Notes under the pieces: model-generated
What the model was told of the DNA's origin: nothing
The model's input: only the letters and a program-made list of their open reading frames with translations
Databases searched by the model: none
Program-made: the position numbers and the translations under genes
Source: Photobacterium profundum SS9
GTDB taxonomy: Bacteria; Pseudomonadota; Gammaproteobacteria; Enterobacterales; Vibrionaceae
Length of the DNA: 64,000 nucleotides
Reading direction: 5' to 3'
Assembly: GCF_000196255.1 (NCBI RefSeq)
Contig: NC_006370.1
Span: forward strand, 3,175,411-3,239,410
Part shown: positions 42,169-60,152 of the stretch, piece by piece
Numbering within the stretch: position 1 is the stretch's first letter
How the letters are laid out: each line of letters begins with the position of its first letter

Positions 42169-42228
42169 CTAGCCAACGGCCGTATCTATAAGGGCCTGGT
42201 TCTGCTTTTTTAAGGTATTCAAAAACAC
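42169..42228 (-). pseudogene. yhfX: Stub of yhfX (first 19 codons)
   Basis: Reading from GTG 42228, the frame gives VFLNTLKKQNQALIDTAVG and stops. It matches the start of the intact yhfX at 55199 (MFLTALKKQNPALIDTAAD). The surrounding intergenic DNA also matches. The rest of yhfX and yhfW has been lost from this copy, so the duplication ends here. Confidence 0.85.
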
Positions 42229-42240
42229 CTTCTTAAGAGG

Positions 42241-42286
42241 TAAGAGTTCACCCGTTGTTGCTTAGGGGGAGGTGAGCGAACTCTTA
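42241..42286. repeat. Degraded stem-loop after proximal yhfT
   Basis: This is the counterpart of the perfect hairpin at 55221-55266, but the left arm carries changes (CACCC in place of CGCTC), so pairing is weakened. It lies between yhfT and the yhfX stub. Confidence 0.7.
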
Positions 42287-42293
42287 TTTGAGG

Positions 42294-43595
42294 TTAAATT
42301 GCGAAAAGTCCCATTAAATACAGCACGTTAAGGACAAAACCAGTCAAGATAGCTGCAACAGCAGACGCTGCTATTTTGAGTATTGGTCGACCCATAACTT
42401 CATTGAGGTAGTAAAGAATAGCGAAAATGGTGAATCCGGTTGTAGACCCCATTTTCATTACTGCCAGCACACCACCAATCAACAATGCAAATTCCATTAA
42501 GGTATTCATTGAGTTGCGAATATTATCTGAGGAATTACGGATAGAGGGAAATTGCTCTAGGAAGCCACTGATTCTCCGTAACAGGAAGACTTCAGCGCAG
42601 ATAATAATTGCACCCAGTATTGCTGCAACGGGAATACTTGGAGCAAGGTAGCCAGCAACGAATACAAAGGACATTCCGACGACGCCGTAAATCCCTGTCG
42701 TGAGAGCCGTGGTCGCTATCAGCGGGAGAAATGCGAGACCGCGCATAAACTCAGACAGTGCCACCCGATTCATCGCGGCATCCTGAGCAACCGGATCGGT
42801 CTGCTTGTACACTTCGGCCAGTGTGTAGATGGACACTTCCGAGCCAGCAAGAATACCAGCATTCGTCACCGCGGCAATCAGGGCACCAGTAATTGCAAGG
42901 AAAGGCAGATTTTTGACGATACGCTTGGTGCGTTCGTCAAACAGGCTGTACATACCTGACATATCGGGTGGTGATATTCCGTTTTTCCTGTCAGTCAGAT
43001 CTTTGCGGATTGCGGCCCCGACTAACATGACCATACCAATAAAGATCTGGATGGGTTCAGGATAGATCGCAGTGTATTTCATGACCAACAAGCGGGAAAT
43101 AATAATGACAATGGCTGCCACAACCCCAGCGCGCCAACCAAATTGATAAAAGATCGCAAGCAGCGGGAACAAGGCGAATGCCGACATCACTGGCGTACCC
43201 AATTCGGCCAGTGCACCTAAAGCATCGATCGGCAATCCGGTAAATACGGTATTGACTGCCGAAAGTGATGTGACCACCAATATTCCCCACAAGCCACCAG
43301 CCAGCCCGGCCAGTACGCGGCTGCCGATCATCACGCCCAAAACATCTGTGGGTAAAAATAGCAACCAAGGGTTGAGCAAACCCGTTGAAAGGGTAAATGA
43401 AATCCCTACCGAGGCAACAAAACCAATAGACAGACCAAATGCGGCAGAGCCCGCATCTCGCCTTGTCATATTACCCTCCGCAACCTGAGGAAGCATGGGA
43501 CGGATCCCATCGTGAAATACTGCGGCGCTCATGTTGGCGATAACTGCGGTCATGGCGCAGAGCAGTGCGACTAACCCTATGTGCATAACATCCAT
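42294..43595 (-). CDS. yhfT: YhfT family membrane protein (proximal copy)
   Basis: A 433-residue inner-membrane protein with roughly twelve hydrophobic segments, matching the length of E. coli YhfT (434 aa). Notable elements are SAAVFHDGIRPMLPQVAEGNMTRRDAGSAAFGL near the start and GSTTGFTIFAILYYLNEVMGRPILKIAAS at the end. It is a predicted carrier of unknown substrate. It starts nine bases after the yhfU stop on the operon strand. A second copy at 55274 differs at around twenty residues. Both copies appear intact. Confidence 0.87.
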   Translation of the reverse strand: MDVMHIGLVALLCAMTAVIANMSAAVFHDGIRPMLPQVAEGNMTRRDAGSAAFGLSIGFVASVGISFTLSTGLLNPWLLFLPTDVLGVMIGSRVLAGLAGGLWGILVVTSLSAVNTVFTGLPIDALGALAELGTPVMSAFALFPLLAIFYQFGWRAGVVAAIVIIISRLLVMKYTAIYPEPIQIFIGMVMLVGAAIRKDLTDRKNGISPPDMSGMYSLFDERTKRIVKNLPFLAITGALIAAVTNAGILAGSEVSIYTLAEVYKQTDPVAQDAAMNRVALSEFMRGLAFLPLIATTALTTGIYGVVGMSFVFVAGYLAPSIPVAAILGAIIICAEVFLLRRISGFLEQFPSIRNSSDNIRNSMNTLMEFALLIGGVLAVMKMGSTTGFTIFAILYYLNEVMGRPILKIAASAVAAILTGFVLNVLYLMGLFAI

Positions 43596-43604
43596 GTTAT
43601 GTCC

Positions 43605-43964
43605 TTACCTCTTAGATAGAATAGAAATGAGCATGGGAATGGCGTGTTCAACATGTTCAATGGAAAGTCCGAAAGCCACCTTTCCCTCATCGACAAAACG
43701 CTCGACTTCGTCTGGTTTCGCTTGAATAGATGGCTTGGCTATGGTGCAGCTCTGCGGATAACCAATGATCGCGATTGCCATGGATAGCGCCGCGCCTGCC
43801 CCCGTATTACAGCAACCGATATAATAATCCAGCTGGCCGGATTTCACTTGCATGGCCGCCTCCATGTCGTTCAGAATGTGGCAGTTAAAAGCACCTGGCG
43901 CGGTGGCGTCAATTTGCTCTTTTATCTGTTCACGCTGCAAACCTGCAATACCAATTTGTTTCAT
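43605..43964 (-). CDS. yhfU: YhfU family protein (proximal copy)
   Basis: A 119-residue soluble protein of the DUF2620/YhfU family, length matching E. coli YhfU (117). The glycine-rich region CCNTGAGAALSMAIAIIGY is typical. Function unknown; the fold is likely a small nucleotide- or phosphate-binding domain, which is inference. The DNA is almost identical to the other copy at 56585, with only the last residue different (R against K). Confidence 0.85.
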   Translation of the reverse strand: MKQIGIAGLQREQIKEQIDATAPGAFNCHILNDMEAAMQVKSGQLDYYIGCCNTGAGAALSMAIAIIGYPQSCTIAKPSIQAKPDEVERFVDEGKVAFGLSIEHVEHAIPMLISILSKR

Positions 43965-43980
43965 ACGCTAACCTCTTTAT

Positions 43981-44856
43981 TTAGCCAAATAGCTGGCTGG
44001 GATTGTGTTTTAGCATGGTGTCTATCTCTTGCTGGCTAATTCCACGCTCTCGTAGCATGGGGATGAAGACATCCATCAGGTAGCAAAAACCAAGACCGCC
44101 ATTTGCTTTCAGGTGAGACCGCCGAGTGATGTCCATGGAAAGCATGACCCGCTCTAAATAACCGCGTTCAGATAGCACTTCCAGCATGTCTACACGTTTG
44201 GTATCTGGGTAATAGCCGTTTTTACCGATCGTGTCGAACTGCACATAGCAGCCCTGATCAATAAGCCAGATAATGTCATCTACGTTGTCTTTCAGATCGC
44301 AGTGGCCGATCGTCACATTATTCATGTTGACGCCATGCTGCTTCAGCCACATTACCTGCTGGCGGCCCATGGAGCTCATCGACTGGTGAGTAGAGATTGG
44401 ACGGCCTGTTTCTAGGTGGGCATAAGCGGCAGCTTCAAATACTTTTTTCTCTATGTCGGTAAACGTGTTCTCACTGCTGCCGATTTCACCAATTAAGCTG
44501 GCTTTCAAATCACTTCCGTCAATGCCATTTTCGATTTCACCCACCATCTCGCGGCAGATCTCCTGTGCCGACAGAGCGTGCAGCTCGGGTGGGAAAAAAC
44601 CATCGATGTAGTAACCCGTAGAGAGCAAGATATTCATCCCAGTATCAGCCATTAAATCCTCAATAAAATGATGATTTCTACCCATAAAGCGATTAGTCAC
44701 TTCTACGATGTTGAATACACCGCGTAACTTAAGTTGCAACAGCTCTTCTTTGATCAGATCGTACTGATCCAGCCTGCAGTCGACATCGCCTTTTTGTGGC
44801 GATAAATCAATATGCAGGTGTTCGTGAACATAGGTGTAACCGCTGTCGTCAATCAT
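43981..44856 (-). CDS. php: Phosphotriesterase homology protein Php/YhfV (proximal copy)
   Basis: A 291-residue metal-dependent hydrolase very like E. coli Php (292 aa). Metal ligands appear at the expected places: HEHLH at residues 11-15, glutamate in GEIGSSE, histidine in ISTHQS, histidine in GHCDLKD, and aspartate in MLSMDITRRSHLKANGG. The fold is the amidohydrolase TIM barrel. The natural substrate is not known; the E. coli protein lacks paraoxonase activity to my knowledge. It lies between yhfY (broken here) and yhfU. It differs from the copy at 56961 at one residue (E/D at 67). Confidence 0.9.
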   Translation of the reverse strand: MIDDSGYTYVHEHLHIDLSPQKGDVDCRLDQYDLIKEELLQLKLRGVFNIVEVTNRFMGRNHHFIEDLMADTGMNILLSTGYYIDGFFPPELHALSAQEICREMVGEIENGIDGSDLKASLIGEIGSSENTFTDIEKKVFEAAAYAHLETGRPISTHQSMSSMGRQQVMWLKQHGVNMNNVTIGHCDLKDNVDDIIWLIDQGCYVQFDTIGKNGYYPDTKRVDMLEVLSERGYLERVMLSMDITRRSHLKANGGLGFCYLMDVFIPMLRERGISQQEIDTMLKHNPSQLFG

Positions 44857-44858
44857 AT

Positions 44859-45117
44859 TGGTCTATTTTCCCGTCACTATTTATTTCGCGCAATAGAGCG
44901 AGGAAAGGTTACTGAGAAAGCGTGATAGGTTGTTTGAAAATAACACGATCCGTTGCGCGTGCAAGATTCGTCATGGCCATCAGTCACAGACCCAACTGCC
45001 ATTCGGATACCAGCAGATCAACTGCTTTCATGGTTCCGTCATAAGCAATCTGGGATATCACCCCAGCATCCTAAAATAAGACTAACCTTTCTTTGTTGCA
45101 TTGCTCCTCCGAATTCT
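44859..45117 (-). pseudogene. yhfY: Broken yhfY (proximal copy)
   Basis: The DNA matches the intact yhfY at 57861-58217 but lacks 128 bp corresponding to 57901-58028, and has a further net loss of about 12 bp near 44980. Neither is a multiple restoring the frame overall, and no long frame remains. The deletion joins CTGAGAAAG directly to CGTGATAGG. The gene is dead here while both neighbours remain intact. Confidence 0.88.
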
Positions 45118-45120
45118 CTA

Positions 45121-46017
45121 CTAATAGCTCGGCGTTATTTCGCCTGTCACTACTTTTTTCTGATGAGAGATCAAGGCATCCTTGTTGATTAAATTTCTCA
45201 AGAGTACCTTAATATGCGGTGCTTCATTTCGAACCAGTAGTACTGCCTCAGAGGCCATTTCACACTGGGGAATATGGTTAAGCGATTTTTCTGCCAGACC
45301 GACATTACCCATATCTATCGCTTCCGTCAGCCAAATCACCGCATCTATATTTCTGCTAGCCAAATGGACCAAACTGTCATCGTAATTGATTTCGACAATG
45401 TCAATGTCTTGATCCGGAAAAGCCTGCTTAGTCAGGATCTGCTGGTCAGGAGAATCCGAGTCGACGCCAACACGACGGATGGCACTATACTCGCCCTTAC
45501 GGTAAATTACCCTGTGATCGTTCGAATAGGAGTTCTTTCCCAAATTCACGGCAACAGTCAAACCATCGCTGTAACTCTGTGCTGCAAGCTTTGACATAAT
45601 GGCAATATCATGCACACCGGAGCTTAATAATTTAGCTCTAACGCTGGCACCTCGCATGTGGGCAAAATACAACGGTAAGCTGCTCATCTGGGCTTTTAAT
45701 CCGCTAGCCAATCCTTCGTAATGTTTGGTGTAAGGCAGCGGCATGGCACACACAACGTGACCTAGCCCCGCCAGACGGACAATTTCTTCGCTGTCTAAGC
45801 GAGAAATATAAGTGCCATTGCGGCCTTGCCGTGAAAGGGCAATCACGCCATCTGCTTCAATCTTTTTCAGGGCTTTCTGAACTAAGCCAACCGACAGCTC
45901 GAACTCTTCAGCCAACGAATCAATGGTACGTAAACGGGCACCTTCTTTTTGTGACATTAAATATCGGGCAATATTAATGACAGCGGCACCTTCTTTTTTT
46001 ATATATTTTGTTGGCAT
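45121..46017 (-). CDS. yhfZ: YhfZ transcriptional regulator (proximal copy)
   Basis: A 298-residue regulator with an N-terminal winged helix of the GntR kind (RLRTIDSLAEEFELSVGLVQKALKKIEADGVI, residues 25-56) and a C-terminal domain resembling a periplasmic-binding-protein fold. Length matches E. coli YhfZ (301 aa). The ATG at 46017 is chosen because it has GAAGG upstream and gives the same length as the other copy; a TTG two codons earlier is the alternative. It is the first gene of the proximal operon and divergent from the PTS operon, so it may regulate both. Confidence 0.88.
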   Translation of the reverse strand: MPTKYIKKEGAAVINIARYLMSQKEGARLRTIDSLAEEFELSVGLVQKALKKIEADGVIALSRQGRNGTYISRLDSEEIVRLAGLGHVVCAMPLPYTKHYEGLASGLKAQMSSLPLYFAHMRGASVRAKLLSSGVHDIAIMSKLAAQSYSDGLTVAVNLGKNSYSNDHRVIYRKGEYSAIRRVGVDSDSPDQQILTKQAFPDQDIDIVEINYDDSLVHLASRNIDAVIWLTEAIDMGNVGLAEKSLNHIPQCEMASEAVLLVRNEAPHIKVLLRNLINKDALISHQKKVVTGEITPSY

Positions 46018-46486
46018 ACCCAAACCTTCAGTTTTATGAAAGTTCCAATAGTACGCCTATCTATGGTTAAGTAAATTAGCGCCAAACACAAATGAGACGT
46101 CTATCAATAAGATTGACGTCATAATGTCTGTGAATAAAAAGCAGTGATATCACCTTATTTATCAATTTTCTATGAAGAAGTGACGGCTTTTTCATTTTAT
46201 GAGACCGATATTCAAATTAAGAATTGAAATTAATACCTCCACCAATTCAAGGGCACCGTATTCTGAAAATATCTCCTTCACTTCGCGGTTACTGAGTTCA
46301 TAATTTTCCATCTCAGTTTGCAACAGAAACATTGATAGTTCTAATTGCGTCGCAAATTAGTGTTTCTCTTATCATCAATAAAATGAATATTTAAAAGATG
46401 TGAGTTTGAACCATTATTTTTATTTAAAGGGCGATTATTATCGAACCATAAATTTTTAGAGTGAAATAAGTTTAAGGGAAGATAGT
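46018..46486. other. Divergent region between yhfZ and the PTS operon
   Basis: About 470 bp. It contains a GACGT...ACGTC imperfect palindrome around 46103-46127 (candidate YhfZ operator) and a possible 46-codon minus-strand frame listed separately. The remainder is AT-rich; no terminator or riboswitch structure was evident. Confidence 0.6.
46192..46332 (-). CDS. Possible small protein, 46 residues
   Basis: A minus-strand frame from ATG 46332 encodes 46 residues beginning MFLLQTEMENYELSNREVK and ending in a hydrophobic helix-like stretch. Its composition (many E, L, N, V) is more protein-like than the surrounding DNA. No good ribosome site precedes it, and the open frame extends about a dozen codons further upstream. 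It may be the tail of a decayed gene. No family recognised. Confidence 0.3.
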   Translation of the reverse strand: MFLLQTEMENYELSNREVKEIFSEYGALELVEVLISILNLNIGLIK

Positions 46487-46804
46487 ATGAAGATTTTTCT
46501 ATGCTGTGCAGCTGGGATGTCAACCAGCATGCTTGTAAAAAAAATGCGTGAAGCTGCTGATAAGCAAAATATTGATTGCTCAATTAATGCTTATTCAGTT
46601 TCTGAATTTGAAACATCACTTGCTGATAATGATGTTTGTCTGGTAGCACCGCAAGTTAAGTTCCAATTTGAAGATTTCAAGAAACGTGCTGAAGATAGCG
46701 GTAAAGCTTGTGGCCTTATCGACATGATGACCTACGGCATGATGAAAGGTGACGTCGTTCTTGATCAAGCAATTAATCTTTATCAATCGATAAATAACAA
46801 GTAA
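46487..46804 (+). CDS. PTS lactose/cellobiose-type IIB component
   Basis: A 105-residue cytoplasmic protein of the cellobiose/chitobiose IIB family. The phospho-accepting cysteine lies in the N-terminal loop FLCCAAGMSTSM, next to a second cysteine. The remainder (VSEFETSLADNDVCLVAPQVKF) fits the family. It receives phosphate from the IIA protein encoded downstream and passes it to sugar bound by IIC. GGGAAG precedes the ATG. It starts a four-gene operon with IIC, IIA and a TIM-barrel-like gene. Confidence 0.92.
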   Translation: MKIFLCCAAGMSTSMLVKKMREAADKQNIDCSINAYSVSEFETSLADNDVCLVAPQVKFQFEDFKKRAEDSGKACGLIDMMTYGMMKGDVVLDQAINLYQSINNK

Positions 46805-46821
46805 TTAAATGGAGTTAATTC

Positions 46822-48147
46822 ATGTCTGTTCTTAATGGAATTATGACCTTCGTTGAAAAAGTCGTGGCTCCTGTTGCCGCGAAAGTTTCAACTCAGCGTC
46901 ATATCAATGCAATAAAAGATGGTTTCGTGGCAACAATGCCGTTTTTGATTGTGGGTTCTTTACTTTTGGTATTAGCTTTTCCACCACCGGGGGATAACTT
47001 TTTCCTTAATGGCTGGCATTCCCTTGTGGAGATGATTGGTCGAGATAATATACTTACACCGTTCCAGATCAGTATGGGTATTTTTTCTGTTTATGCTGCA
47101 TTTGGTATTGGTTTTAGTTTGGCTGAAGCATATAAGCTACGTCCAGTGAACACTGGCTTACTATCATTATTCACCTTCCTTTTGGCAGCAGCTCCTATTC
47201 AATCCGTTGAGGGTATAGGTGGTATGATACCAGCAGCTTATCTGGGTGGTACTGGTGCATTTACCGCAATCATGGCTGGTTTGTTTGTTCCGGAACTACA
47301 GCGTTTCTTACGTGATAAAAATATCAGCCTTAAACTCCCTGAAGCTGTGCCTGAGAAAATCGCAGCATCATTTGACCTGCTAATTCCAATCGCTATTCTC
47401 GCAGTATTGGTTCCGGGTCTTAATGCTATTCTTGCTGGCAGCGATCTAACGATTCCATCTGCTGTTATGGAATTATTCATGCCATTAGTATCGGCATCAG
47501 ACTCGTTCTTGGCATGTCTACTTGCCGTTGTTATGATTCAGCTACTTTGGTTCGCTGGTATTCACGGTTCAGCCGTTGTTGTTACTGGTATCTTAGGTCC
47601 AATCCTACTGGTCAATCTTGGTATGAACCAAGACGCACTCGCAGCTGGTCTTGAGATACCGAAGATTTTCGTTAACCCGCTTCTTGACTTCTTTGTCTTT
47701 GTTGGTGGTGCCGGTGGTACTTGGGGCCTCGTTGTTCTGATGATGCGCTCGAAGGCTACCCACCTGAATGTAATAGGAAAAATGTCTATCATTCCTGGCA
47801 GCTTCAATATCAACGAGCCAGTTATTTTTGGTACACCTATCGTAATGAACCCAAACTACTTCATCCCTTGGATGCTTTCACCAATGATTAACACATGTAT
47901 TGTGTGGGTGGCCTTTAAGACAGAGTTTGTATCTAAAATTATTGCACTTCCACCATGGACTATGCCTGCGCCTATCGGTGCGGTTATCGCGACAAATTCA
48001 GGTACAGCGGCCATTTTGGTTGGAGTCTGCGTACTTGTGAGCATGGTTGTTTTCTATCCGTTCTTCAAGGTACATGAAAAGCAATTACTTATCGAAGAGC
48101 AAGCAAATATTGAAGATGCACCGAACTCTGAACCAGTAAAGGCTTAA
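46822..48147 (+). CDS. PTS lactose/cellobiose-type IIC permease
   Basis: A 441-residue membrane component with about ten hydrophobic segments. Family features include KDGFVATMPFLIVGSLLLVLAFPP near the start, WFAGIHGSAVVVTGILGPIL in the middle, and FNINEPVIFGTPIVMNP, the conserved sugar-site region. It imports and phosphorylates a beta-linked disaccharide or similar. The usual partner, a phospho-glycosidase gene, is absent from the operon, which makes the sugar uncertain. Chitobiose is possible given the chitin-binding protein in the same island, but this is only inference. Confidence 0.92.
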   Translation: MSVLNGIMTFVEKVVAPVAAKVSTQRHINAIKDGFVATMPFLIVGSLLLVLAFPPPGDNFFLNGWHSLVEMIGRDNILTPFQISMGIFSVYAAFGIGFSLAEAYKLRPVNTGLLSLFTFLLAAAPIQSVEGIGGMIPAAYLGGTGAFTAIMAGLFVPELQRFLRDKNISLKLPEAVPEKIAASFDLLIPIAILAVLVPGLNAILAGSDLTIPSAVMELFMPLVSASDSFLACLLAVVMIQLLWFAGIHGSAVVVTGILGPILLVNLGMNQDALAAGLEIPKIFVNPLLDFFVFVGGAGGTWGLVVLMMRSKATHLNVIGKMSIIPGSFNINEPVIFGTPIVMNPNYFIPWMLSPMINTCIVWVAFKTEFVSKIIALPPWTMPAPIGAVIATNSGTAAILVGVCVLVSMVVFYPFFKVHEKQLLIEEQANIEDAPNSEPVKA

Positions 48148-48149
48148 TC

Positions 48150-48488
48150 ATGACTTTCGAAATTAATACTCAAGAAGATATTACTGAAGAATTTTTAATG
48201 ACACTACTTTGCAAAGCAGGTGAAGCACGTTCAGCGGTTATGCAAGCGATGAGTGAGGCTCGTAATGGTGAGTTTGAGCGTTCTGAAGCAATGTTAGTCG
48301 CTGCCGAAGAAGCACTTACCGAAGTACACAAAACGCAAACAGGCTTAATTGGTTTCGATGAAGGTGAAGGTAAGGTCACGATGACTCTTATTCTTACTCA
48401 CATTCAGGATCACATTATGACAGCTATGTTATGCCGCGATATGGCAAATGAGATCATTGCTATTCACCGTCAGCTAAACAACGCATAG
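48150..48488 (+). CDS. PTS lactose/cellobiose-type IIA component
   Basis: A 112-residue three-helix protein of the LacF/ChbA family. The phospho-histidine lies in LTHIQDHIMTAMLC (about residue 88-92), and the helix QAMSEARNGEFERSEAMLVAAEEAL is typical. It accepts phosphate from HPr. It begins two bases after the IIC stop and is followed ten bases later by the TIM-barrel-like gene. Confidence 0.92.
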   Translation: MTFEINTQEDITEEFLMTLLCKAGEARSAVMQAMSEARNGEFERSEAMLVAAEEALTEVHKTQTGLIGFDEGEGKVTMTLILTHIQDHIMTAMLCRDMANEIIAIHRQLNNA

Positions 48489-48498
48489 GACAACTGAT

Positions 48499-49389
48499 AT
48501 GAAGAAGCGTATTTTTGATTTAACGAGTCATGATGTTAATAACATGACACGTGCCGAGATTGTTGAGTGTATCAAGCAATCTGAAGGTCGCACCATGATG
48601 GTTGAGAACGTTGTATCTATGGCACCACCACTAGATCTCGTCTCTGGTGCTGAGATTGCAGCAGCATTCGGTGCTGATATGATCACCCTTAACTGTCTAG
48701 ATATCTTTAACCCTCGTGCAGAAGTGACCGGAGCCGATAACCATGGCGTTAAGGATCATTTCACTATTGAAGAATTACGCGATCTAACAGGCCGCCTAAT
48801 CGGGTGTAACCTTGAGCCAGTACCGGCTGGGTTTACTGATATTGAGGTCGGTCGTTCAGTGACACGTGAAACTGTAACGCATGCTGTTGAGTTAGGCATG
48901 AACTATATTATGTTAACGGGCAACCCTGGAATGAATGTATCACAGGAAGCCATTCTTGATGCTATTCGCTTATGCCGTGAAGTGTCGCAGAACATCGTTA
49001 TCATCGCGGGCAAGATGCACGGTGGCGGCGTTGGTAACGACTATGACTTAGACATCGTTAGCGATTTTGCAGAAGCTGGTGCTGACATCATGATGTTCCC
49101 TGCCCCTTATACAACACCTAGTGTTTCACCCGATATAGCCCATCAGATGATGGATGCTGTTCACAACGCCGGAATGCTTGGGCTATTAGCAATTGGTACA
49201 TCTCAAGAAGGTGCATCAGAGAGCTATATAGAGCAAGTCGCGATGGCATCGAAAGGAGCGGGAGCTGACATCGTTCATATTGGTGATGGTGGATATGGTG
49301 GTATTGCACCACCAGAAAATATCATCCGTATGGGCATGACAATTCGCGGTCGTCGCCATCAATTTAAACGCATGGCTAACCGTCGATAA
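48499..49389 (+). CDS. TIM-barrel-like protein linked to PTS (unassigned function)
   Basis: A 296-residue protein. It starts MKKRIFDLTSHDVNNMTRAE, and has alternating strand/helix segments including GADMITLNCLDIFNPRAEV, NYIMLTGNPGMNVSQEAILDAI, GADIMMFPAPYTTPS and GADIVHIGDGGYGGIAPP, suggesting a beta/alpha barrel with a phosphate-binding end. Related proteins are often labelled haloacid-dehalogenase-like or PEP phosphonomutase-like, but the HAD motif DXDXT is not visible, so those names look wrong. It is encoded in the PTS operon in place of a glycosidase, suggesting it acts on the phosphorylated sugar. No reaction is assigned. Confidence 0.75.
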   Translation: MKKRIFDLTSHDVNNMTRAEIVECIKQSEGRTMMVENVVSMAPPLDLVSGAEIAAAFGADMITLNCLDIFNPRAEVTGADNHGVKDHFTIEELRDLTGRLIGCNLEPVPAGFTDIEVGRSVTRETVTHAVELGMNYIMLTGNPGMNVSQEAILDAIRLCREVSQNIVIIAGKMHGGGVGNDYDLDIVSDFAEAGADIMMFPAPYTTPSVSPDIAHQMMDAVHNAGMLGLLAIGTSQEGASESYIEQVAMASKGAGADIVHIGDGGYGGIAPPENIIRMGMTIRGRRHQFKRMANRR

Positions 49390-49437
49390 CGCTAAGTAAA
49401 TAACTATCACTGGTAATCAGAAATAACTATAACTATT

Positions 49438-49464
49438 AAGGAGGTCGGTTAAACCGACCTCCTT
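49438..49464 (+). terminator. Terminator after the PTS operon
   Basis: AAGGAGGTCGGTT and AACCGACCTCCTT form a 13-pair hairpin with a single-base loop by symmetry, followed by ATTTTTTTG. Confidence 0.93.
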
Positions 49465-49589
49465 ATTTTTTTGCGTGTTTTTTATTAAAGACTTGCCGAG
49501 CAACCGTTAGCGTATTTGAGTGTTAGGGGTAATCAAGTAAATATTAGCCCTTTATGGGGAAACTGAATCTTTTCAATAAGTGGAAGACT

Positions 49590-50150
49590 ATGGCAAATAT
49601 TATTTTTCTACACGGAACATCGAGTTCAGGTAAATCAACACTATCACAGGTAATACAAAAACAATCGGAAACACCTTTTTGGCATTTTGCGTCCGATCAG
49701 TTTGTTGAAGCGGGAATGTTACCCAAAAGAGTAAATGATGGCGGTGACTTTGATTGGAGTAAAAATCGTCCACTTTTCTTCGATGCCTTTCATGGGTGTA
49801 TTAAGGCAGTGGCAGACGCAGGAAATAATATAATTCTCGATCATATTATCGAATCTAAAGAGTGGTTTCATTACTTGCAAGAGTTACTTTCAAACCACGA
49901 TGTTTTCTTTGTTGGTATTCATTGTCCAATTGAGGTACTACGAGAACGTGAAATTAATCGAGGAGATGGAAGTATTGGTAATCGATATTTAGGTGAATCT
50001 GAGTATCACTTAAAACATGTTCATACCTATTCAGCATACGATTATGAGATTGATACTAGCTCGCAACCTACAGAGCATAGTGCTGAGATGGTTTTATCTG
50101 CATGGGAGCAAAGGGGACAAAGTGCATTTTTCAGTGTTCTTGAAAAATAG
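49590..50150 (+). CDS. Chloramphenicol phosphotransferase-like kinase
   Basis: A 186-residue P-loop kinase of the chloramphenicol 3-O-phosphotransferase-like family (the Streptomyces enzyme is 178 aa). Walker A is GTSSSGKST at the N terminus, followed by FWHFASDQFVEAGMLP, an aspartate-rich acceptor region, and VGIHCPIEVLREREINRGD with the lid arginines. The ATG at 49590 gives the family N terminus MANIIFLHG; an upstream ATG at 49554 adds 12 residues. Many such proteins in non-producers have no proven resistance role. It stands alone between the PTS operon and the convergent secreted-protein gene. Confidence 0.83.
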   Translation: MANIIFLHGTSSSGKSTLSQVIQKQSETPFWHFASDQFVEAGMLPKRVNDGGDFDWSKNRPLFFDAFHGCIKAVADAGNNIILDHIIESKEWFHYLQELLSNHDVFFVGIHCPIEVLREREINRGDGSIGNRYLGESEYHLKHVHTYSAYDYEIDTSSQPTEHSAEMVLSAWEQRGQSAFFSVLEK

Positions 50151-52634: not shown

Positions 52635-52798
52635 CGTTCTATCCTTGTCATTGTTGTTGCACTTAATTAGGGCGTAGGCCCAAGTTTTAGCCCCAATAAC
52701 AATTATTGGGCACGGTGTTTTATCTTTACAAAGACGTTGCAGCCGGTCGCACATTTGAGGCTGATATACGTTCTCTGGCCTTTTGCTGTTGCATAATT

Positions 52799-54025
52799 CT
52801 ATTTAATAAGAGAAAGGAACGAGCTTCCGCTTACGGGCAACCCCGCACCAAAAAATGCCGTGACACTGGCGCCCACATCGGCAAGTGTGGTTCTTGTCCC
52901 CACCTCAACGCCCTGAGTGTGCTTGTGATACACCAACAAGGGCACCTGTTCCCGTGTGTGCCGGGTATGGCCTATGAATGGGTCATTGCCGTGATCAGCC
53001 ATTACCACCAACACATCATCGTTTTCCATCAGCGAGATAACCTGTTCTAACCCCTTATCTGATTTCTCAAGTATTTTCCAGTACTGACGCGGATCCTGTA
53101 GATGTCCGGATAAATCAGTTTCCTGAATATTGGCGCAGAAAAAGCCTGTCGTTTGCTGCTGCAAATCCTGATGCATTAGCTCAAATACCCTCTCAGTGTC
53201 GACGACTGAAAGGTAAGAGGTGCCAGTTTCATTCTGGACAATATCGGCGACTTTGCCGTACAGGTAAGTATGGATACCCACTTCGTTCAGTTTTTGCGGA
53301 ACCTGTGTGGCAGCATCTACGCCATAGCCCAAATGGAGCACCTGAAATCCGTTGTCATAAGTACCGGAATCTGGCGCGTTGACACCTATGTATTTAACTT
53401 CGCCATTTGGATCAGCCTTGGTTTCGATGGCATTAAGGATCTGCCGCATAGAGTCGACAAAACCGCCGAAGGCGATATTGCGGCCGACCCCATTGGCCGA
53501 GCGCACCACTTGGCCAATCTGCTTAACTTGATCGAAACTAATTTGAGAAAAATTTGCCGTCAAGTTGTATACCTGACCCAAGTCAGCTTCAAGATTGTCA
53601 CCCACCACGACGCAATCATTCACGATAAGAACTTGCAATCCGGGTTTTCCCAACCGACTAACCTGATAGTTATTTTTCAGTAATGCTTGTTCTATGGCAT
53701 CAATCGACTGCTGAAATGGCAGGACAACTGGCGGTTTGGGAAGTGTACCCATGATCTCTTGGTGGCCCATGAAAGTGTCTCCACCTTCATGTGCAAGCCA
53801 TGCCTGGCCCCAGTTCGCATCAGGATTTGCTTCCATTACCGATTTGGTTTCGCCCACGACATTAATTAGCCCAAGCTTTTCAAGCGTTGGAAGCTCTTTT
53901 AGCGGAAAATGATTGAGTAATTTTTCTGCGGTACTAGCACCAGTATCCTGAGGACGCACCACTGGTACATCTGGCATTTCACCGACACCGAAACCATCTA
54001 ATACCACCACGATAAATCTAGCCAT
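52799..54025 (-). CDS. yhfW: YhfW, phosphopentomutase-like metalloenzyme
   Basis: A 408-residue member of the alkaline-phosphatase superfamily, the same length as E. coli YhfW. Metal-binding signs are VVLDGFGVGEMPD at the N terminus, the nucleophile-type region HEGGDTFMGHQEIMGT, ETDLSGHLQDP and MADHGNDPFIGHTRHTREQVP near the C terminus. Phosphopentomutases move phosphate between C1 and C5 of pentoses; the actual substrate of YhfW is unknown. The ATG at 54025 overlaps the yhfX stop by eight bases, giving translational coupling. Only the distal operon has it. Confidence 0.9.
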   Translation of the reverse strand: MARFIVVVLDGFGVGEMPDVPVVRPQDTGASTAEKLLNHFPLKELPTLEKLGLINVVGETKSVMEANPDANWGQAWLAHEGGDTFMGHQEIMGTLPKPPVVLPFQQSIDAIEQALLKNNYQVSRLGKPGLQVLIVNDCVVVGDNLEADLGQVYNLTANFSQISFDQVKQIGQVVRSANGVGRNIAFGGFVDSMRQILNAIETKADPNGEVKYIGVNAPDSGTYDNGFQVLHLGYGVDAATQVPQKLNEVGIHTYLYGKVADIVQNETGTSYLSVVDTERVFELMHQDLQQQTTGFFCANIQETDLSGHLQDPRQYWKILEKSDKGLEQVISLMENDDVLVVMADHGNDPFIGHTRHTREQVPLLVYHKHTQGVEVGTRTTLADVGASVTAFFGAGLPVSGSSFLSLIK

Positions 54026-55199
54026 GAAACACCTCATTGCCTAAAGAGTCATAAACGCCCACTAACTGCGGAGCACCCTGCGAAATACCGGAAATAAGCG
54101 CAACATCGCTACGGGTGACGAATATTTGAGTGCGGAATGCCATAACCACCGGCGAGCCAATAGCGAAGTTCCCCTCAAGTTTTAAGTGATAATCAATATT
54201 TGAATCGTCATCGTTGCTAACGGGAACGATCATCTCCTGCTCCGCTTGGCCGTTTTCGTCTTGCCAAACCAATGCCGAAACAAGGTTACCCCTACGGTAA
54301 TAGCCGCCACCGTAGCAGTAACTGTGCTCTCCATAATGATGTGAAACCTCACTAAGATAGAGCATCGCAATCTTTTCAGGCTGACTGCCATCCTGATTCG
54401 CGGGTGTGGTACCTGTCAGCGCATGTCCGGGTTCACCGTGCGTGCCCCCGCATTCCGCCAGCATAGGAAGTGTTTCACAGCTTGTCGACGATGGGCCGTT
54501 TAATTGTTCAATGGCATATCCCAACGATTTAGCCTTATCCGCGGCTAATCTCAAGGTGATCAGATTCACCGTGGGCTCTGTCATGTTGGTTTTAGTGTTG
54601 TATAAAAAGCAAGGGAAATGCGTTAACCCCACTAGCTTGATATTTGGTAAGGCGGTTATCGCTGCAAGAACCTGTTCCAATAGCTCGAAAGGGAAGCCTG
54701 ATTCCTGATTCACGTACATGTGATCATCCACTCGGTAAAATTTAAGCAAAATCCCTTGTGTTCTGTTCGCATTGACTGCCGCAGCAGATATTTCCCGGGC
54801 CTTATCCAACGAGTAGACGGTGATCACTTCAGGTTGAATATTTTCGACTATAGAAGTAACCATACCGCTTGGCGGCTGAACCAGATGTCCGATATGGGCT
54901 ATTTTTATTCCAGCTCCAGCTAGTTGACGAGCCTCCTTAAAGTCGACGCAGACGATACCTTGGTACTGACACTCCTCTACCAATATCCGGGCAAGTTCCG
55001 GATTGCGCCCGATCTGCTTGGTCATGGCATAAAGCTTGATACCCAGCTCATCCGCTTTGGCTTTGATGCGATTGGCATTGGCTTTGAACTGATCAACGTC
55101 AATGACATAGGTATCAGGTAATAACCTGCCTTTCCTTAAGTAATCGGCGGCAGTATCTATAAGTGCCGGGTTCTGCTTTTTTAGGGCAGTTAGAAACAT
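54018..55199 (-). CDS. yhfX: YhfX, PLP-dependent alanine-racemase-like protein
   Basis: A 393-residue protein with the alanine-racemase N-terminal barrel. The lysine expected to bind PLP lies in GIKLYAMTKQIGRNPELA (about residue 60), and barrel elements include GIVCVDFKEARQLAGAGIKIAHIGHL and GLTHFPCFLYNTKTN. The C-terminal domain is short. Members may racemise amino acids or bind PLP as sensors; the substrate here is unknown. It follows yhfT after a hairpin-containing 74-bp gap and overlaps yhfW. The proximal operon keeps only its first 19 codons. Confidence 0.88.
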   Translation of the reverse strand: MFLTALKKQNPALIDTAADYLRKGRLLPDTYVIDVDQFKANANRIKAKADELGIKLYAMTKQIGRNPELARILVEECQYQGIVCVDFKEARQLAGAGIKIAHIGHLVQPPSGMVTSIVENIQPEVITVYSLDKAREISAAAVNANRTQGILLKFYRVDDHMYVNQESGFPFELLEQVLAAITALPNIKLVGLTHFPCFLYNTKTNMTEPTVNLITLRLAADKAKSLGYAIEQLNGPSSTSCETLPMLAECGGTHGEPGHALTGTTPANQDGSQPEKIAMLYLSEVSHHYGEHSYCYGGGYYRRGNLVSALVWQDENGQAEQEMIVPVSNDDDSNIDYHLKLEGNFAIGSPVVMAFRTQIFVTRSDVALISGISQGAPQLVGVYDSLGNEVFHG

Positions 55200-55220
55200 A
55201 AAGAAAACCTTCTTAAGAGG

Positions 55221-55266
55221 TAAGAGTTCGCTCGTTGTTGCTTAGGGGGAGGTGAGCGAACTCTTA
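55221..55266. promoter_or_regulatory. Perfect stem-loop between yhfT and yhfX
   Basis: TAAGAGTTCGCTC and GAGCGAACTCTTA pair perfectly (13 bp) around a 20-base loop. On the operon strand it lacks a T run, so it may be an RNA-processing or stability hairpin between operon halves instead of a terminator. The proximal copy at 42241 has lost part of the pairing. Confidence 0.65.
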
Positions 55267-55273
55267 TTTGAGG

Positions 55274-56575
55274 TTAAATTGCGAAAAGTCCCATTAAATA
55301 CAGCATATTAAGGACAAAACCAGTCAAGATCGCTGCAACAGCAGGCGCTGCTATTTTGAGTATTGGTCGACCCATAACTTCATTGAGGTAGTAGAGAATG
55401 GCGAAGATGGTGAACCCGGTTGTTGAACCCATTTTCATCACTGCCAGCACACCACCAATCAACAATGCAAATTCCATTAGAGTATTCATTGAGTTGCGAA
55501 TGTTATCTGAAGAATTACGGATAGAGGGGAATTGCTCTAGGAAACCACCTATCCCCCGTAGCAAGAAAACTTCAGCACAAATAATGACAGCACCCAATGC
55601 TGCTGCAACGGGAACACTTGGAGCAAGGTAGCCAGCAACGAACACAAAGGTCATACCGACGACACCGTAAACTCCAGTCGTGAGAGCCGTGGTCGCTATC
55701 AGCGGGATAAATCCAAGACCGCGCATAAACTCAGACAGTGCTACCTGCTTCATCGCGGCATCTTGAGCAACCGGATCGGTCAGTTTGTATGCCTCGGCCA
55801 GTGAGTAGATGGACACTTCCGAGCCAGCAAAAATACCGGCATTCGTCACTGCAGCAATCAGGGCACCGGTAACTGCAAGGAAAGGCAGGTTTTTGACGAT
55901 GCGCTTGGTGCGTTCGTCAAACAGGCTGTGCATACCTGACATATCGGGTGGTGATATCCCGTTTTTCCTGTCATTCAGATCTTTTCGGATTGCGATACCG
56001 ACTAACATGACCATACCAATGAAGATCTGGATAGATTCAGGATAGATCGCAGTGTATTTCATGACCAACAGACGGGAAATAATAACAACAATGGCTGCCA
56101 CAGCCCCAGATCGCCAACCAAATTGATAGAAAATAGCAAGCAGCGGGAACAAAGCGAATGCCGACATTACCGGGGTACCCAGTTCGGCCAGTGCACCTAA
56201 AGCATCGATCGGCAACCCGGTTAATACGGTATTGACTGCCGAAAGTGATGTGACCACCAATATCCCCCACAAGCCACCAGCCAGCCCGGCCAATACGCGG
56301 CTGCCGATCATCACGCCAAGAATATCTGTGGGTAAAAAGAGTAGCCAAGGATTGAGCAAACCCGTTGAAAGGGTAAATGAAATCCCTACCGAGGCAACGA
56401 AGCCGATAGATAAGCCAAATGCAACAGAGCCCGCATCTCGCCTTGTCATATTACCTTCAACGAGCTGAGGAAGGATGGGACGGATACCATCATGGAATAC
56501 TGCCGCGCTCATATTAGCAACTATTGCCGTCATGGCGCAGAGCGATGCAACTAACCCTAAATGTACAACATCCAT
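55274..56575 (-). CDS. yhfT: YhfT family membrane protein (distal copy)
   Basis: A 433-residue carrier-like protein with about twelve hydrophobic segments, parallel to the proximal copy at 42294. Differences are conservative and spread along the length (for example ILPQLVEG against MLPQVAEG near residue 35, and AYKLTDP against VYKQTDP). Both copies are therefore under selection or recently separated. It sits between yhfU and the yhfX hairpin in a complete operon. Substrate unknown. Confidence 0.87.
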   Translation of the reverse strand: MDVVHLGLVASLCAMTAIVANMSAAVFHDGIRPILPQLVEGNMTRRDAGSVAFGLSIGFVASVGISFTLSTGLLNPWLLFLPTDILGVMIGSRVLAGLAGGLWGILVVTSLSAVNTVLTGLPIDALGALAELGTPVMSAFALFPLLAIFYQFGWRSGAVAAIVVIISRLLVMKYTAIYPESIQIFIGMVMLVGIAIRKDLNDRKNGISPPDMSGMHSLFDERTKRIVKNLPFLAVTGALIAAVTNAGIFAGSEVSIYSLAEAYKLTDPVAQDAAMKQVALSEFMRGLGFIPLIATTALTTGVYGVVGMTFVFVAGYLAPSVPVAAALGAVIICAEVFLLRGIGGFLEQFPSIRNSSDNIRNSMNTLMEFALLIGGVLAVMKMGSTTGFTIFAILYYLNEVMGRPILKIAAPAVAAILTGFVLNMLYLMGLFAI

Positions 56576-56584
56576 GTTATGTCC

Positions 56585-56944
56585 TTACTTCTTAGAGAGG
56601 ATAGAAATGAGCATGGGAATGGCGTGTTCAACATGTTCAATGGAAAGTCCGAAAGCCACCTTTCCCTCATCGACAAAACGCTCGACTTCGTCTGGTTTCG
56701 CTTGAATAGATGGCTTGGCTATGGTGCAGCTCTGCGGATAACCAATGATCGCGATTGCCATGGATAGCGCCGCGCCTGCCCCCGTATTACAGCAACCGAT
56801 ATAATAATCCAGCTGGCCGGATTTCACTTGCATGGCCGCCTCCATGTCGTTCAGAATGTGGCAGTTAAAAGCACCTGGCGCGGTGGCGTCAATTTGCTCT
56901 TTTATCTGTTCACGCTGCAAACCTGCAATACCAATTTGTTTCAT
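56585..56944 (-). CDS. yhfU: YhfU family protein (distal copy)
   Basis: A 119-residue protein identical to the proximal copy except for the last residue. The shared DNA between the copies is essentially unchanged through this gene, unlike yhfT beside it. It overlaps no neighbour: 9 bp to yhfT and 16 bp from php. Function unknown. Confidence 0.85.
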   Translation of the reverse strand: MKQIGIAGLQREQIKEQIDATAPGAFNCHILNDMEAAMQVKSGQLDYYIGCCNTGAGAALSMAIAIIGYPQSCTIAKPSIQAKPDEVERFVDEGKVAFGLSIEHVEHAIPMLISILSKK

Positions 56945-56960
56945 ACGCTAACCTCTTTAT

Positions 56961-57836
56961 TTAGCCAAATAGCTGGCTGGGATTGTGTTTTAGCATGGTG
57001 TCTATCTCTTGCTGGCTAATTCCACGCTCTCGTAGCATGGGGATGAAGACATCCATCAGGTAGCAAAAACCAAGACCGCCATTTGCTTTCAGGTGAGACC
57101 GCCGAGTGATGTCCATGGAAAGCATGACCCGCTCTAAATAACCGCGTTCAGATAGCACTTCCAGCATGTCTACACGTTTGGTATCTGGGTAATAGCCGTT
57201 TTTACCGATCGTGTCGAACTGCACATAGCAGCCCTGATCAATAAGCCAGATAATGTCATCTACGTTGTCTTTCAGATCGCAGTGGCCGATCGTCACATTA
57301 TTCATGTTGACGCCATGCTGCTTCAGCCACATTACCTGCTGGCGGCCCATGGAGCTCATCGACTGGTGAGTAGAGATTGGACGGCCTGTTTCTAGGTGGG
57401 CATAAGCGGCAGCTTCAAATACTTTTTTCTCTATGTCGGTAAACGTGTTCTCACTGCTGCCGATTTCACCGATTAAGCTGGCTTTCAAATCACTTCCGTC
57501 AATGCCATTTTCGATTTCACCCACCATCTCGCGGCAGATCTCCTGTGCCGACAGAGCGTGCAGCTCGGGTGGAAAAAAACCATCGATGTAGTAACCCGTA
57601 GAGAGCAAGATATTCATTCCGGTATCAGCCATTAAATCATCAATAAAATGATGATTTCTCCCCATAAAACGATTAGTCACTTCTACGATGTTGAATACAC
57701 CGCGTAACTTGAGTTGCAACAGCTCTTCTTTGATCAGATCGTACTGATCCAGCCTGCAGTCGACATCGCCTTTTTGTGGCGATAAATCAATATGCAGGTG
57801 TTCGTGAACATAGGTGTAACCGCTATCGTCAATCAT
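56961..57836 (-). CDS. php: Phosphotriesterase homology protein Php/YhfV (distal copy)
   Basis: A 291-residue amidohydrolase-fold enzyme with all metal ligands described for the proximal copy (HEHLH, GEIGSS, ISTHQS, GHCD, MDITR). It differs at a single residue (FIDDL against FIEDL). Nucleotide changes cluster at the 5' end of the gene (57490 onward), while the 3' two thirds are identical to the other copy. In this operon it follows an intact yhfY by 24 bp. Confidence 0.9.
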   Translation of the reverse strand: MIDDSGYTYVHEHLHIDLSPQKGDVDCRLDQYDLIKEELLQLKLRGVFNIVEVTNRFMGRNHHFIDDLMADTGMNILLSTGYYIDGFFPPELHALSAQEICREMVGEIENGIDGSDLKASLIGEIGSSENTFTDIEKKVFEAAAYAHLETGRPISTHQSMSSMGRQQVMWLKQHGVNMNNVTIGHCDLKDNVDDIIWLIDQGCYVQFDTIGKNGYYPDTKRVDMLEVLSERGYLERVMLSMDITRRSHLKANGGLGFCYLMDVFIPMLRERGISQQEIDTMLKHNPSQLFG

Positions 57837-57860
57837 ATTGGTCTATTTTCCCGTCACTAT

Positions 57861-58217
57861 TTATTTCGCGCAATAAAGCGAGAAAAGGTTACTGAGAAAG
57901 AATGTATTTTCCGCATCCGGAGCCTGTTCGATACCAAAGCCGCCGAGGATTTGCCTGTTCGTCGCCTGAATTACTGGGAAGTCGTCGTCGCTGATGATCT
58001 CAGCAAGAATATCTTCGTCCAGACCTTGCGTGATAGGTTGATCGGAAAGAATACGATCCGTTGCGCGTGCAAGATGCGTCATGGCCATCTGTAATTGCTC
58101 TGTTGACGTGTCCAACTGCCACTCGGATACCAGCAGATCAACGGCTTTTACCGTTCCGTCATGAGCGACTTGGGATATCACCCCCGCATCCTTAAGTAAG
58201 GCTAACCTTTGCTGCAT
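57861..58217 (-). CDS. yhfY: YhfY, PRD-domain protein
   Basis: A 118-residue protein resembling a single PTS-regulation domain (PRD): QRLALLKDAGVISQVAHDGTVKAV at the start and TDRILSDQPITQGLDEDILAEI in the middle. AGGAGGAAT precedes the ATG, a very strong ribosome site. PRDs are phosphorylated by PTS proteins, which would connect the yhf operon with sugar PTS status, although a stand-alone PRD has no output domain. The proximal counterpart is broken. Confidence 0.83.
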   Translation of the reverse strand: MQQRLALLKDAGVISQVAHDGTVKAVDLLVSEWQLDTSTEQLQMAMTHLARATDRILSDQPITQGLDEDILAEIISDDDFPVIQATNRQILGGFGIEQAPDAENTFFLSNLFSLYCAK

Positions 58218-58236
58218 TATTCCTCCTGATTTTTTA

Positions 58237-59133
58237 CTAATAGCTCGGCGTTATTTCGCCTGTCACGACTTTTTTCTGATGAGAATTCAGGGCATCCTTG
58301 TTGATTAAATTTCTCAAGAGTGCCTTAATATGCGGTGCTTCATTTCGAACCAGTAGTACTGCCTCAGAGGCCATTTCACACTGGGGAATATGATTAAGCG
58401 ATTTTTCTGCCAGACCGACGTTATCCATATCTATTGCTTCCGTCAGCCAAATCACTGCATCTATATTTCTGCTAGCCAAATGGATCAAACTGTCACCGTA
58501 ATTGATTTCGACAATGTCAATGTCTTGATCCGGAAAAGCCTGTTTGGTCAGGATCTGCTGGTCAGGAGAATCCGAGTCGACGCCAACACGGCGGATGCCA
58601 CCATATTCGCCCTTACGGTAAATCACCCTGTGATCGTGCGAATAGGAGTTCTTTCCCAGATTCACGGCAACCGTCAAACCATCGCTGTAACTCTGTGCTG
58701 CAAGCTTTGACATAATGGCAATATCATGTACACCGGAGCTTAATAATTTAGCTCTAACGCCGGCACCTCGCATGTGGGCAAAATACAACGGTAAGCTGCT
58801 CATCTGGGCTTTTAATCCGCTAGCCAATCCTTCTGAATGTTTGATGTAAGGCAGCGGCATGGCACACACGACGTGACCTAGCCCCGCCAGACGGACAATT
58901 TTTTCACTGTCTAAGCGAGAAATATAAGTGCCATTGCGGCCTTGCCGTGAAAGGGCTATCACCCCATCCGCTTCAATCTTTTTCAGGGCTTTCTGAACTA
59001 AGCCAACCGACAGCTCGAACTCTTCAGCCAGCGAATCAATGGTACGTAAACGGGCACCTTCTTTTTGTGACATCAAATATCGAGCAATATTGATGACTGC
59101 GGCACCTTCTTTTTTTATGTATTGCTTGGACAT
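58237..59133 (-). CDS. yhfZ: YhfZ transcriptional regulator (distal copy)
   Basis: A 298-residue GntR-type winged-helix regulator with a C-terminal ligand-binding-like domain, closely matching the proximal copy. The recognition region is unchanged (SVGLVQKALKKIEADGVI), so both regulators may bind the same operators. It starts the distal operon. The DNA upstream has no marked resemblance to the region upstream of the proximal copy beyond the first few codons, so the two promoters differ. Confidence 0.88.
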   Translation of the reverse strand: MSKQYIKKEGAAVINIARYLMSQKEGARLRTIDSLAEEFELSVGLVQKALKKIEADGVIALSRQGRNGTYISRLDSEKIVRLAGLGHVVCAMPLPYIKHSEGLASGLKAQMSSLPLYFAHMRGAGVRAKLLSSGVHDIAIMSKLAAQSYSDGLTVAVNLGKNSYSHDHRVIYRKGEYGGIRRVGVDSDSPDQQILTKQAFPDQDIDIVEINYGDSLIHLASRNIDAVIWLTEAIDMDNVGLAEKSLNHIPQCEMASEAVLLVRNEAPHIKALLRNLINKDALNSHQKKVVTGEITPSY

Positions 59134-60129: not shown

Positions 60130-60152
60130 TGTCTCACACATTAGCGGTTCAA

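Follow-up and report, generated by a model that had tools for sequence, protein, structure and literature searches.

Why does a bacterium keep most of one operon twice within a single island, one copy whole and the other stripped? The question is raised by the yhf genes of Photobacterium profundum SS9, in a stretch of 64,000 nucleotides (positions 3,175,411 to 3,239,410 of contig NC_006370.1, RefSeq assembly GCF_000196255.1; hereafter the window, to which all coordinates refer unless stated otherwise). In this window, yhfZ, php, yhfU and yhfT are present twice in direct orientation, with the yhfT starts 12,980 bp apart, and intact yhfY, yhfX, yhfW and the gene for a chitin-binding protein are found only in the distal operon. 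We consider it somewhat probable that the proximal genes are the remains of a second yhf operon and now form a specialised second entry for uptake and hydrolysis that depends on the distal YhfX and YhfW. The features of the two operons are the following.

42177..42226, minus strand: yhfX stub of ~50 bp from the 5' end (window self-comparison)
42294..43595, minus strand: proximal yhfT, membrane protein (Pfam YhfT, E 1.3e-149)
43605..43964, minus strand: proximal yhfU, DUF2620 (Pfam)
43621..44490, unstranded: tract across php and yhfU, 870 bp the same as in the distal copy, gene conversion
43981..44856, minus strand: proximal php, phosphotriesterase (PTE) family (Pfam), candidate metal-ligand motifs retained
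44860..45117, minus strand: yhfY remnant carrying frame breaks and a deletion of ~128 bp (comparison with the distal copy)
45121..46017, minus strand: proximal yhfZ, HTH and YhfZ_C (Pfam); the open reading frame (ORF) extends to 46023, with an ATG at 46017
46027..46040, unstranded: TTCAN6TGAA palindrome before proximal yhfZ, candidate YhfZ operator (pattern search)
50448..52754, minus strand: CBM5/12 (chitin-binding) protein (Pfam)
52799..54037, minus strand: yhfW, phosphopentomutase-like (NF009049, E 8.1e-183; Pfam Metalloenzyme)
54018..55199, minus strand: yhfX, alanine-racemase-type pyridoxal phosphate (PLP) protein (PDB 4kbx, E 1.5e-131; Pfam)
55274..56575, minus strand: distal yhfT (Pfam)
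56585..56944, minus strand: distal yhfU (Pfam)
56961..57836, minus strand: distal php (Pfam; E. coli Php 1bf6/4lef, E ~6e-118)
57861..58217, minus strand: distal yhfY, PRD-like (alignment with E. coli YhfY; profile comparisons)
58237..59133, minus strand: distal yhfZ (NF041241, E 7.2e-103)
59143..59156, unstranded: TTCAN6TGAA palindrome before distal yhfZ (pattern search)

Genes of the window were named by Pfam and NCBIfam matches of the called ORFs, Pfam being run on 20 proteins. The distal operon reads yhfZ-yhfY-php-yhfU-yhfT-yhfX-yhfW-CBM5/12 protein and holds homologues of all seven genes expected of an Escherichia coli-type yhf operon in one run, and the proximal one reads yhfZ-(yhfY remnant)-php-yhfU-yhfT-(yhfX stub), with yhfZ, php, yhfU and yhfT intact. 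Compared with itself, the window aligns 42177-44920 with 55148-57900 at 94.1% identity and 44920-46060 with 58028-59176 at 91.1%. The first-pass annotation, made from the letters of the window, had described the yhf set as occurring twice in direct orientation about 13 kb apart, with the distal operon complete and the proximal one without yhfY and nearly all of yhfX; family matches and self-comparison bear this out, down to the remnant and the stub.

The doubled arrangement is natural, given that Photobacterium frigidiphilum (L016/L018) and Photobacterium lipolyticum (L017/L022) share it, each carrying both operons on one contig with order and orientation unchanged. An assembly artefact as the source of the proximal copy, the doubt that the first-pass annotation itself had raised, is ruled out by these two further species. 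Among 52 Photobacterium genomes searched at E 1e-50, three carry two copies of yhfT, seven carry one and 42 none. In trees of the four duplicated genes with 11 outgroup loci, the six island copies form one clade (100/100 in each tree); those of P. lipolyticum group together in the php tree (99/98) and are left unplaced in the trees of yhfT, yhfU and yhfZ.

The proximal copy combines losses with maintenance. Its yhfY is broken in the window, with about 128 bp deleted, and the gap between php and yhfZ is 142 bases in P. frigidiphilum and 35 in P. lipolyticum, stop codon included; of yhfX, the window retains the stub of about 50 bp, P. frigidiphilum another short piece (by eye) and P. lipolyticum none that we saw. 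These remnants differ by species, and the losses thus went to a different extent in each line. All 12 proximal yhfZ, php, yhfU and yhfT genes of the three species are free of internal stops. Between the window and P. lipolyticum, nonsynonymous and synonymous divergences (dN/dS) are 0.046/0.51 for proximal yhfZ, 0.045/0.42 for php, 0.026/0.67 for yhfU and 0.050/0.62 for yhfT, and 308 of the 424 substitutions fall at third codon positions. Random change of equal size left yhfZ, php and yhfT free of stops in 0 of 2000 simulations and yhfU in 1.8%; on the shorter path from the window to P. frigidiphilum the simulation has power only for yhfT (0.15%; other genes 8-56%). The description of the proximal operon as eroding in the first-pass annotation consequently holds for yhfY and yhfX, broken or gone in all three species to differing extents, but not for the four kept genes, which stay open with mainly synonymous change and of which php and yhfU group by species.

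Similarity between the two copies is mosaic. Within the window, proximal and distal yhfU are 99.2% identical, php 99.0%, yhfZ 95.1-95.7% and yhfT 90.1%. Along php-yhfU-yhfT (2563 bp, 141 differences) the longest identical run measures 870 bp, a length reached by none of 10,000 shuffles; the same test gave 39/10,000 in P. frigidiphilum and 785/10,000 in P. lipolyticum, and 426/10,000 and 26/10,000 in two orthologue controls, so that only the run in the window is decisive. In a four-way comparison of both copies from the window and from P. lipolyticum, informative sites grouping by species, by copy or crosswise number 38:0:1 in php, 23:0:0 in yhfU, 49:8:4 in yhfZ and 48:38:7 in yhfT; within yhfT, the first 180 bp hold 21 sites grouping by copy and one by species, and after position 1027 the counts are 0 and 24. 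The pattern fits a duplication of some age, after which gene conversion acted on php-yhfU and on the end of yhfT. The grouping of php-yhfU sites by species and the identical tract are likenesses to concerted evolution by gene conversion as generally understood, from which the present case differs in that only part of the operon is involved, the 5' part of yhfT escaping and yhfZ partly so. Proximal yhfT of the window and of P. frigidiphilum (L018:10001-11302) differ at 6.8% of positions, compared with less than 3% for the other three proximal genes; recombination from an outside source is the likely origin of that difference.

The proteins follow the same division. Columns in which the three proximal copies all differ from the three distal ones number 20 of 433 in YhfT and six of 298 in YhfZ, and none of 291 in Php or 119 in YhfU (YhfT versus Php plus YhfU, Fisher p 1.7e-6, a guide only, the columns not being independent draws). 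None of the six YhfZ columns lies within the Pfam HTH stretch (24-71). Seven of the YhfT columns (85, 181, 277, 288, 302, 309 and 343) are invariant in 26 non-proximal rows, among which are the three distal copies.

A gene-order survey, proposed as a check in the first-pass annotation, covered 44 distinct yhfT places, namely the two in the window and 42 loci, no pair of which match at 97% or more; the loci were found by yhfT, yhfU or name and are not a random sample. YhfX proved the most faithful companion: yhfX lies in the same gene run at 41 of the 44 places, and the three exceptions are the proximal copies, the only places with the stripped set, each of them ~13 kb from a complete operon. 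The gene for YhfW is also missing from the run at L100, L105 and L106, and php at L031, L032, L041, L034, L101 and L104, although L041 is truncated where its contig stops and L034 has part of a php at its edge. In a sample of 295 genomes from the order, hits to YhfU (PF10941) and YhfX (PF21279) fall in the same 12, copy for copy except in the genome of the window (two YhfU, one YhfX). YhfX, more than Php or YhfW, therefore appears as the constant partner of YhfU and YhfT. The commonest order, Z-Y-php-U-T-X-W (26 of 44 places), is also that from which the proximal copy derives; in it yhfY stands between yhfZ and php, and the joint absence of yhfY, yhfX and yhfW must hence have taken more than one loss. 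The three genes stand together in E. coli, at L099, L101, L102, L104, L034, L037 and L044 and, by ORF order, at L103. Excluded from the survey was L048, where a lone distant YhfT (9000-10352, ~30% identical) has no yhfU, yhfX or php match within its 19.9-kb stretch.

The two operons belong to a 17-kb unit of yhf, cellobiose-type phosphotransferase system (PTS)-DUF7916 and yhf genes. The first-pass annotation had rightly placed both operons in one island but had not counted in the PTS and DUF7916 genes, which lie between the copies together with a chloramphenicol-phosphotransferase-like gene. The island and these genes are located as follows.

42045..59338, unstranded: island between a response-regulator gene and a DUF2057 gene, absent from the site in the relative G009
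46487..48488, plus strand: lactose/cellobiose-type PTS, IIB 46487-46804, IIC 46822-48147, IIA 48150-48488 (Pfam/NCBIfam)
48499..49389, plus strand: DUF7916 protein (Pfam)
49554..50150, plus strand: chloramphenicol-phosphotransferase-like protein, between the DUF7916 and CBM genes (Pfam)
59284..59344, plus strand: copy, 61 bp and 90% identical, of the 3' part of the response-regulator gene (41860-41919), at the right end of the island (self-comparison)

In G009, positions 1-3779 of the matching stretch correspond to 38266-42044 and positions 3772-8000 to 59339-63565 of the window, with nothing between; 139 bp separate the DUF2057 and response-regulator genes, and the junction falls within a run of A. 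The segment is in this sense a genomic island, a contiguous block absent at the same site of a relative, which either never had it or has since lost it. The flanking DUF2057 gene is present in nine of 35 genomes of the genus, and the two flanking genes adjoin in G018, G024, G014, G012 and G008 (67-312 bp by match ends). At the island site, G028 has the leading ~100 bp of the island, then a fragment of a broken yhfW and then PTS IIB-IIC-IIA, the PTS genes at 91% over 2248 bp and without DUF7916 or other yhf genes. This locus (L055, G028:C13, 3752-6480) looks like a natural reduction of the same island, in which just the PTS genes and the yhfW piece survive; the latter suggests a proximal operon that formerly extended as far as yhfW.

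The P. lipolyticum island lies on another contig than its response-regulator locus, among different neighbours, and has no match to the chloramphenicol-phosphotransferase-like gene (49554-50150). Its pieces are 86-90% identical to the window when same copies are compared, whereas the core is 69-82% identical in six syntenic pieces and 68-72% in seven smaller pieces elsewhere; island genes have dS values of 0.24-0.91, and dS is saturated in all three core genes compared, which come from one locus. Six further ORFs of the window, with only distant matches (26-44% identity) in the P. lipolyticum stretches compared, were not used for dS. The higher identity and lower dS of the island favour transfer of the whole two-copy unit between lineages. 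No integrase was noticed among the ORFs of the window, read by eye apart from the 20 proteins given to Pfam. The 61-bp repeat is a candidate att site or integration mark of the island; a tRNA-like gene with an abnormal anticodon adjoining the P. lipolyticum island (L051 10060-10140) is another candidate integration mark. Elsewhere in the window, 4366-5604 holds two adjoining direct copies of ~600 bp, 79% identical.

We picture the history and working of the pair as follows. After the duplication, the proximal copy lost yhfY, yhfX and, if ever present, yhfW, and kept yhfZ-php-yhfU-yhfT, and the Photobacterium island, as yhf(proximal) + PTS-DUF7916 + CBM-yhf(distal), would have been moved or exchanged between lineages as one unit. 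Through gene conversion Php and YhfU have stayed without copy-specific residues; YhfT and, to a lesser extent, YhfZ have become copy-specific. The changed proximal YhfT may then handle a related compound, on which Php and YhfU would act as their distal counterparts do; the pathway would be completed in trans by YhfX and YhfW, each encoded only once, in the distal operon. The duplication, the conversion, the losses differing by lineage, the open frames with mostly synonymous change, the copy-specific YhfT and YhfZ residues and the island itself come straight from the computation; that YhfT transports at all, in which direction and what, that the proximal set depends on the distal YhfX and YhfW, and that YhfZ acts at the palindrome, is what we infer.

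Other explanations account for parts of the same evidence. The extra set might merely raise the dosage of Php, YhfU and YhfT under the same regulator, the YhfT differences being drift. The absence of copy-specific columns from Php and YhfU and the palindrome upstream of both yhfZ copies agree with this, and so does a proximal YhfT somewhat less constrained than its distal counterpart; however, under pure dosage YhfT should have been homogenised like Php, and its 20 copy-specific columns are common to three species, with seven of them invariant in the 26 other rows. We regard dosage as an unlikely explanation, if one to be taken seriously. The first-pass annotation had proposed that the genes kept may work independently. 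Four intact genes with a regulator gene and palindrome of their own speak for a set independent of YhfX and YhfW, but the stripped copy sits beside a complete operon in all three cases, yhfX accompanies yhfT at 41 of 44 places, and YhfU and YhfX share the same 12 of 295 genomes, which makes independence improbable.

The broken or missing yhfY and yhfX, together with the documented conversion, could also describe a functionless leftover in decay, held open by repeated conversion from the distal copy. Yet the 5' part of yhfT and yhfZ have long been free of conversion, as their copy-specific sites attest, and their frames remain open, most changes being synonymous; we hold this reading to be highly improbable. 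That no duplication took place, and that two yhf operons of different donors met in one island, draws on the distance between the yhfT copies of the window (9.9%), about that between distal yhfT of the window and of P. lipolyticum (9.5%); it is barely credible in view of the single clade formed by all six copies in each of the four gene trees.

Several observations weigh against the specialised second entry and the history that we propose for it. The doubled island is known from three species only, which are not independent as to the duplication. In yhfT, 48 sites group by species, and the P. lipolyticum copies have no settled position in the tree of that gene. Homogenisation is uneven: the P. 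lipolyticum copies are still 7.9% apart in php and 7.6% in yhfU, and its distal php is as near to the distal php of the window (92.0%) as to its own proximal php (92.1%). At seven of the 20 YhfT columns the proximal residue is also found in other species, so that at these columns the change may have occurred in the distal copies, and the shared YhfT residues could date neutrally from one relaxed phase before the species split; proximal YhfT has a dN/dS of 0.12 between the window and P. frigidiphilum and 0.08 between the window and P. lipolyticum, compared with 0.035 for distal YhfT in the latter pair. The dS argument for transfer relies on three core genes, all from the same locus and all saturated, and the higher island identity could come partly from stronger constraint on island genes. 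As to regulation, TTCAN6TGAA speaks in favour in standing just before yhfZ at 18 of 26 loci, as against 52 of 10,400 random stretches, although the p value overstates this, the motif having been read off these same sequences before counting; it is absent from the other eight yhfZ upstreams, and its three occurrences in the window (before both yhfZ and once inside the CBM gene) compare with a chance mean of 2.0, three being reached in 32 of 100 shuffles.

The families of the encoded proteins bear on what the pathway may do. No Pfam family, PRD (PF00874) included, matched YhfY of the window. E. coli YhfY scores E 7.3e-4 against Pfam PRD (20.2 bits, below the cut-off of 23) and E 1.6e-6 against TIGR03582, again below cut-off, and of the distant YhfY proteins those of L101, L103 and L104 pass the PRD cut-off (36.7, 32.7 and 24.6 bits) and that of L102 falls below it (18.1). 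The EF_0829-type gene set described below includes a stand-alone PRD protein, which YhfY profiles match at E 3.4e-7 and 6.8e-7; two PRD proteins of that set also stay below the Pfam PRD cut-off, and one passes TIGR03582. A profile search of the PDB gave 3nuf (E 0.0044) and 3gwh (0.028). His48 of YhfY is invariant in 16/16 and 13/13 rows and aligns with a PRD histidine, and the second PRD histidine position holds Asn in 12 of 13 rows and His in L103; we take these PRD histidines to be phosphorylatable. By these comparisons YhfY appears PRD-like, and the pathway is in consequence probably tied to the PTS.

YhfU, in which Cys52 is invariant, shows resemblance to SFCGS proteins, and both lean, if weakly, towards RpiB/LacAB. 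A diverse YhfU profile matches SFCGS over 110 columns at E 4.7e-4 (probability 32%) and a narrow one at 0.021; controls, all with the narrow profile, gave 0.27 and 0.74 for unrelated pairs and 0.089 for YhfY-SFCGS. Against Pfam LacAB_rpiB, YhfU scores E 0.095 and 0.065, and the PDB entries 3ono (0.13), 3c5y (0.31) and 2ppw (0.73-0.75) come up amid unrelated matches of similar E. The SFCGS protein of L081 matches ribose-5-phosphate isomerase models (1.4e-4 and 0.001) and DUF2620 (0.0043), all below cut-off. Profile comparison did not show kinship of YhfT with DUF4311 (E 0.3) or DUF4310 (0.0083, 47 columns).

YhfX is alanine-racemase-like in its family matches. Aligned to Bacillus cereus 3m8w, YhfW keeps the DT..GH, ADHGNDP and HTRE motifs and, with a one-residue gap, D..GH, whose residues are presumably the metal ligands and the phosphorylated Thr; it fails the DeoB equivalog TIGR01696 (141 bits, cut-off 341) and belongs to NF009049 (608 bits, cut-off 254), which is also named phosphopentomutase. 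Php keeps the motifs of the phosphotriesterase family, whose candidate metal-ligand roles we assume, stands just under the cut-off of the E. coli Php equivalog (457 bits, cut-off 486) and is distant kin of phospho-furanose lactonases (E 3.8e-24, far under cut-off). The phosphotriesterase family also includes PTER. PTER is reported to be an N-acetyltaurine hydrolase (PMC11374699). A pentose- or amino-sugar-linked yhf substrate would fit these assignments. In the CBM protein, Pfam detects CBM5/12 and a weak RTX repeat only, and residues 24-345 have no PDB match with a six-row profile; its N-terminal ~300 residues are conserved and recur beside yhf operons in several Vibrionaceae. Among the titles listed by literature searches there was no paper on yhf gene function, E. 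coli included, and nothing relevant on the yhf substrate, SFCGS proteins or this duplication.

The PTS genes recur in the vicinity of yhf genes: PTS and/or DUF7916 genes lie beside them in the window and at L016, L017, L030, L035, L036, L040, L043 and L107, and PTS IIC alone at L024, L038, L045 and L046. Of 36 Photobacterium genomes, nine have YhfT, nine have DUF7916 over cut-off and six have both (p 0.0027, uncorrected for kinship), DUF7916 lying on another contig than YhfT in two of the six (G004 and G032). YhfZ may control its operons at the candidate operator; the exact pattern was not found before the PTS genes.

Several known systems invite comparison. The genes of E. coli K-12 yhfZYXW-php-yhfUTS (b3383-b3376), for which YhfX (4kbx) and Php (1bf6/4lef) structures have been solved, are the same by protein match, but the order of the window is Z-Y-php-U-T-X-W without yhfS in either yhf run, and the window adds a second, partial copy and adjoining PTS-DUF7916 and CBM5/12 genes. 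In E. coli MG1655 (L053) the operon adjoins the frl (fructoselysine) genes, a hint only towards sugar-amine compounds. Single-copy yhf loci of Photobacterium and Vibrio share the commonest order, some with adjoining CBM, PTS and/or DUF7916 genes (L030, L035, L040, L043 and L107), but have one complete operon and no stripped copy. The EF_0829-EF_0839 / AHA_3910-AHA_3917 set encodes PRD, SFCGS, DUF4312, DUF4311, DUF4310, amidohydrolase, DgaE-type PLP lyase and aldolase proteins. Like yhf, it pairs a stand-alone PRD protein with a Cys-Gly-rich protein of ~118 residues, beside membrane proteins, an amidohydrolase-type enzyme and a PLP enzyme; unlike yhf, its hydrolase and PLP enzyme come from other families. 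As a tentative and rather doubtful proposal, the two may be branches of one unrecognised class of PRD (PTS-signalled) systems for uptake and catabolism, where a dedicated membrane protein would work together with a small Cys protein like RpiB (YhfU/SFCGS) and of which the doubled Photobacterium island would present a variant, with a proximal YhfT of changed specificity and partners kept common by gene conversion.

The island thus offers a case of gene conversion acting on one part of an operon while the adjoining genes diverge. It provides a natural pair in which Php and YhfU are nearly alike, YhfT and YhfZ come in two differing versions, and YhfX and YhfW are single, and substrates requiring the proximal as against the distal YhfT would point to the compound that the yhf operon handles.

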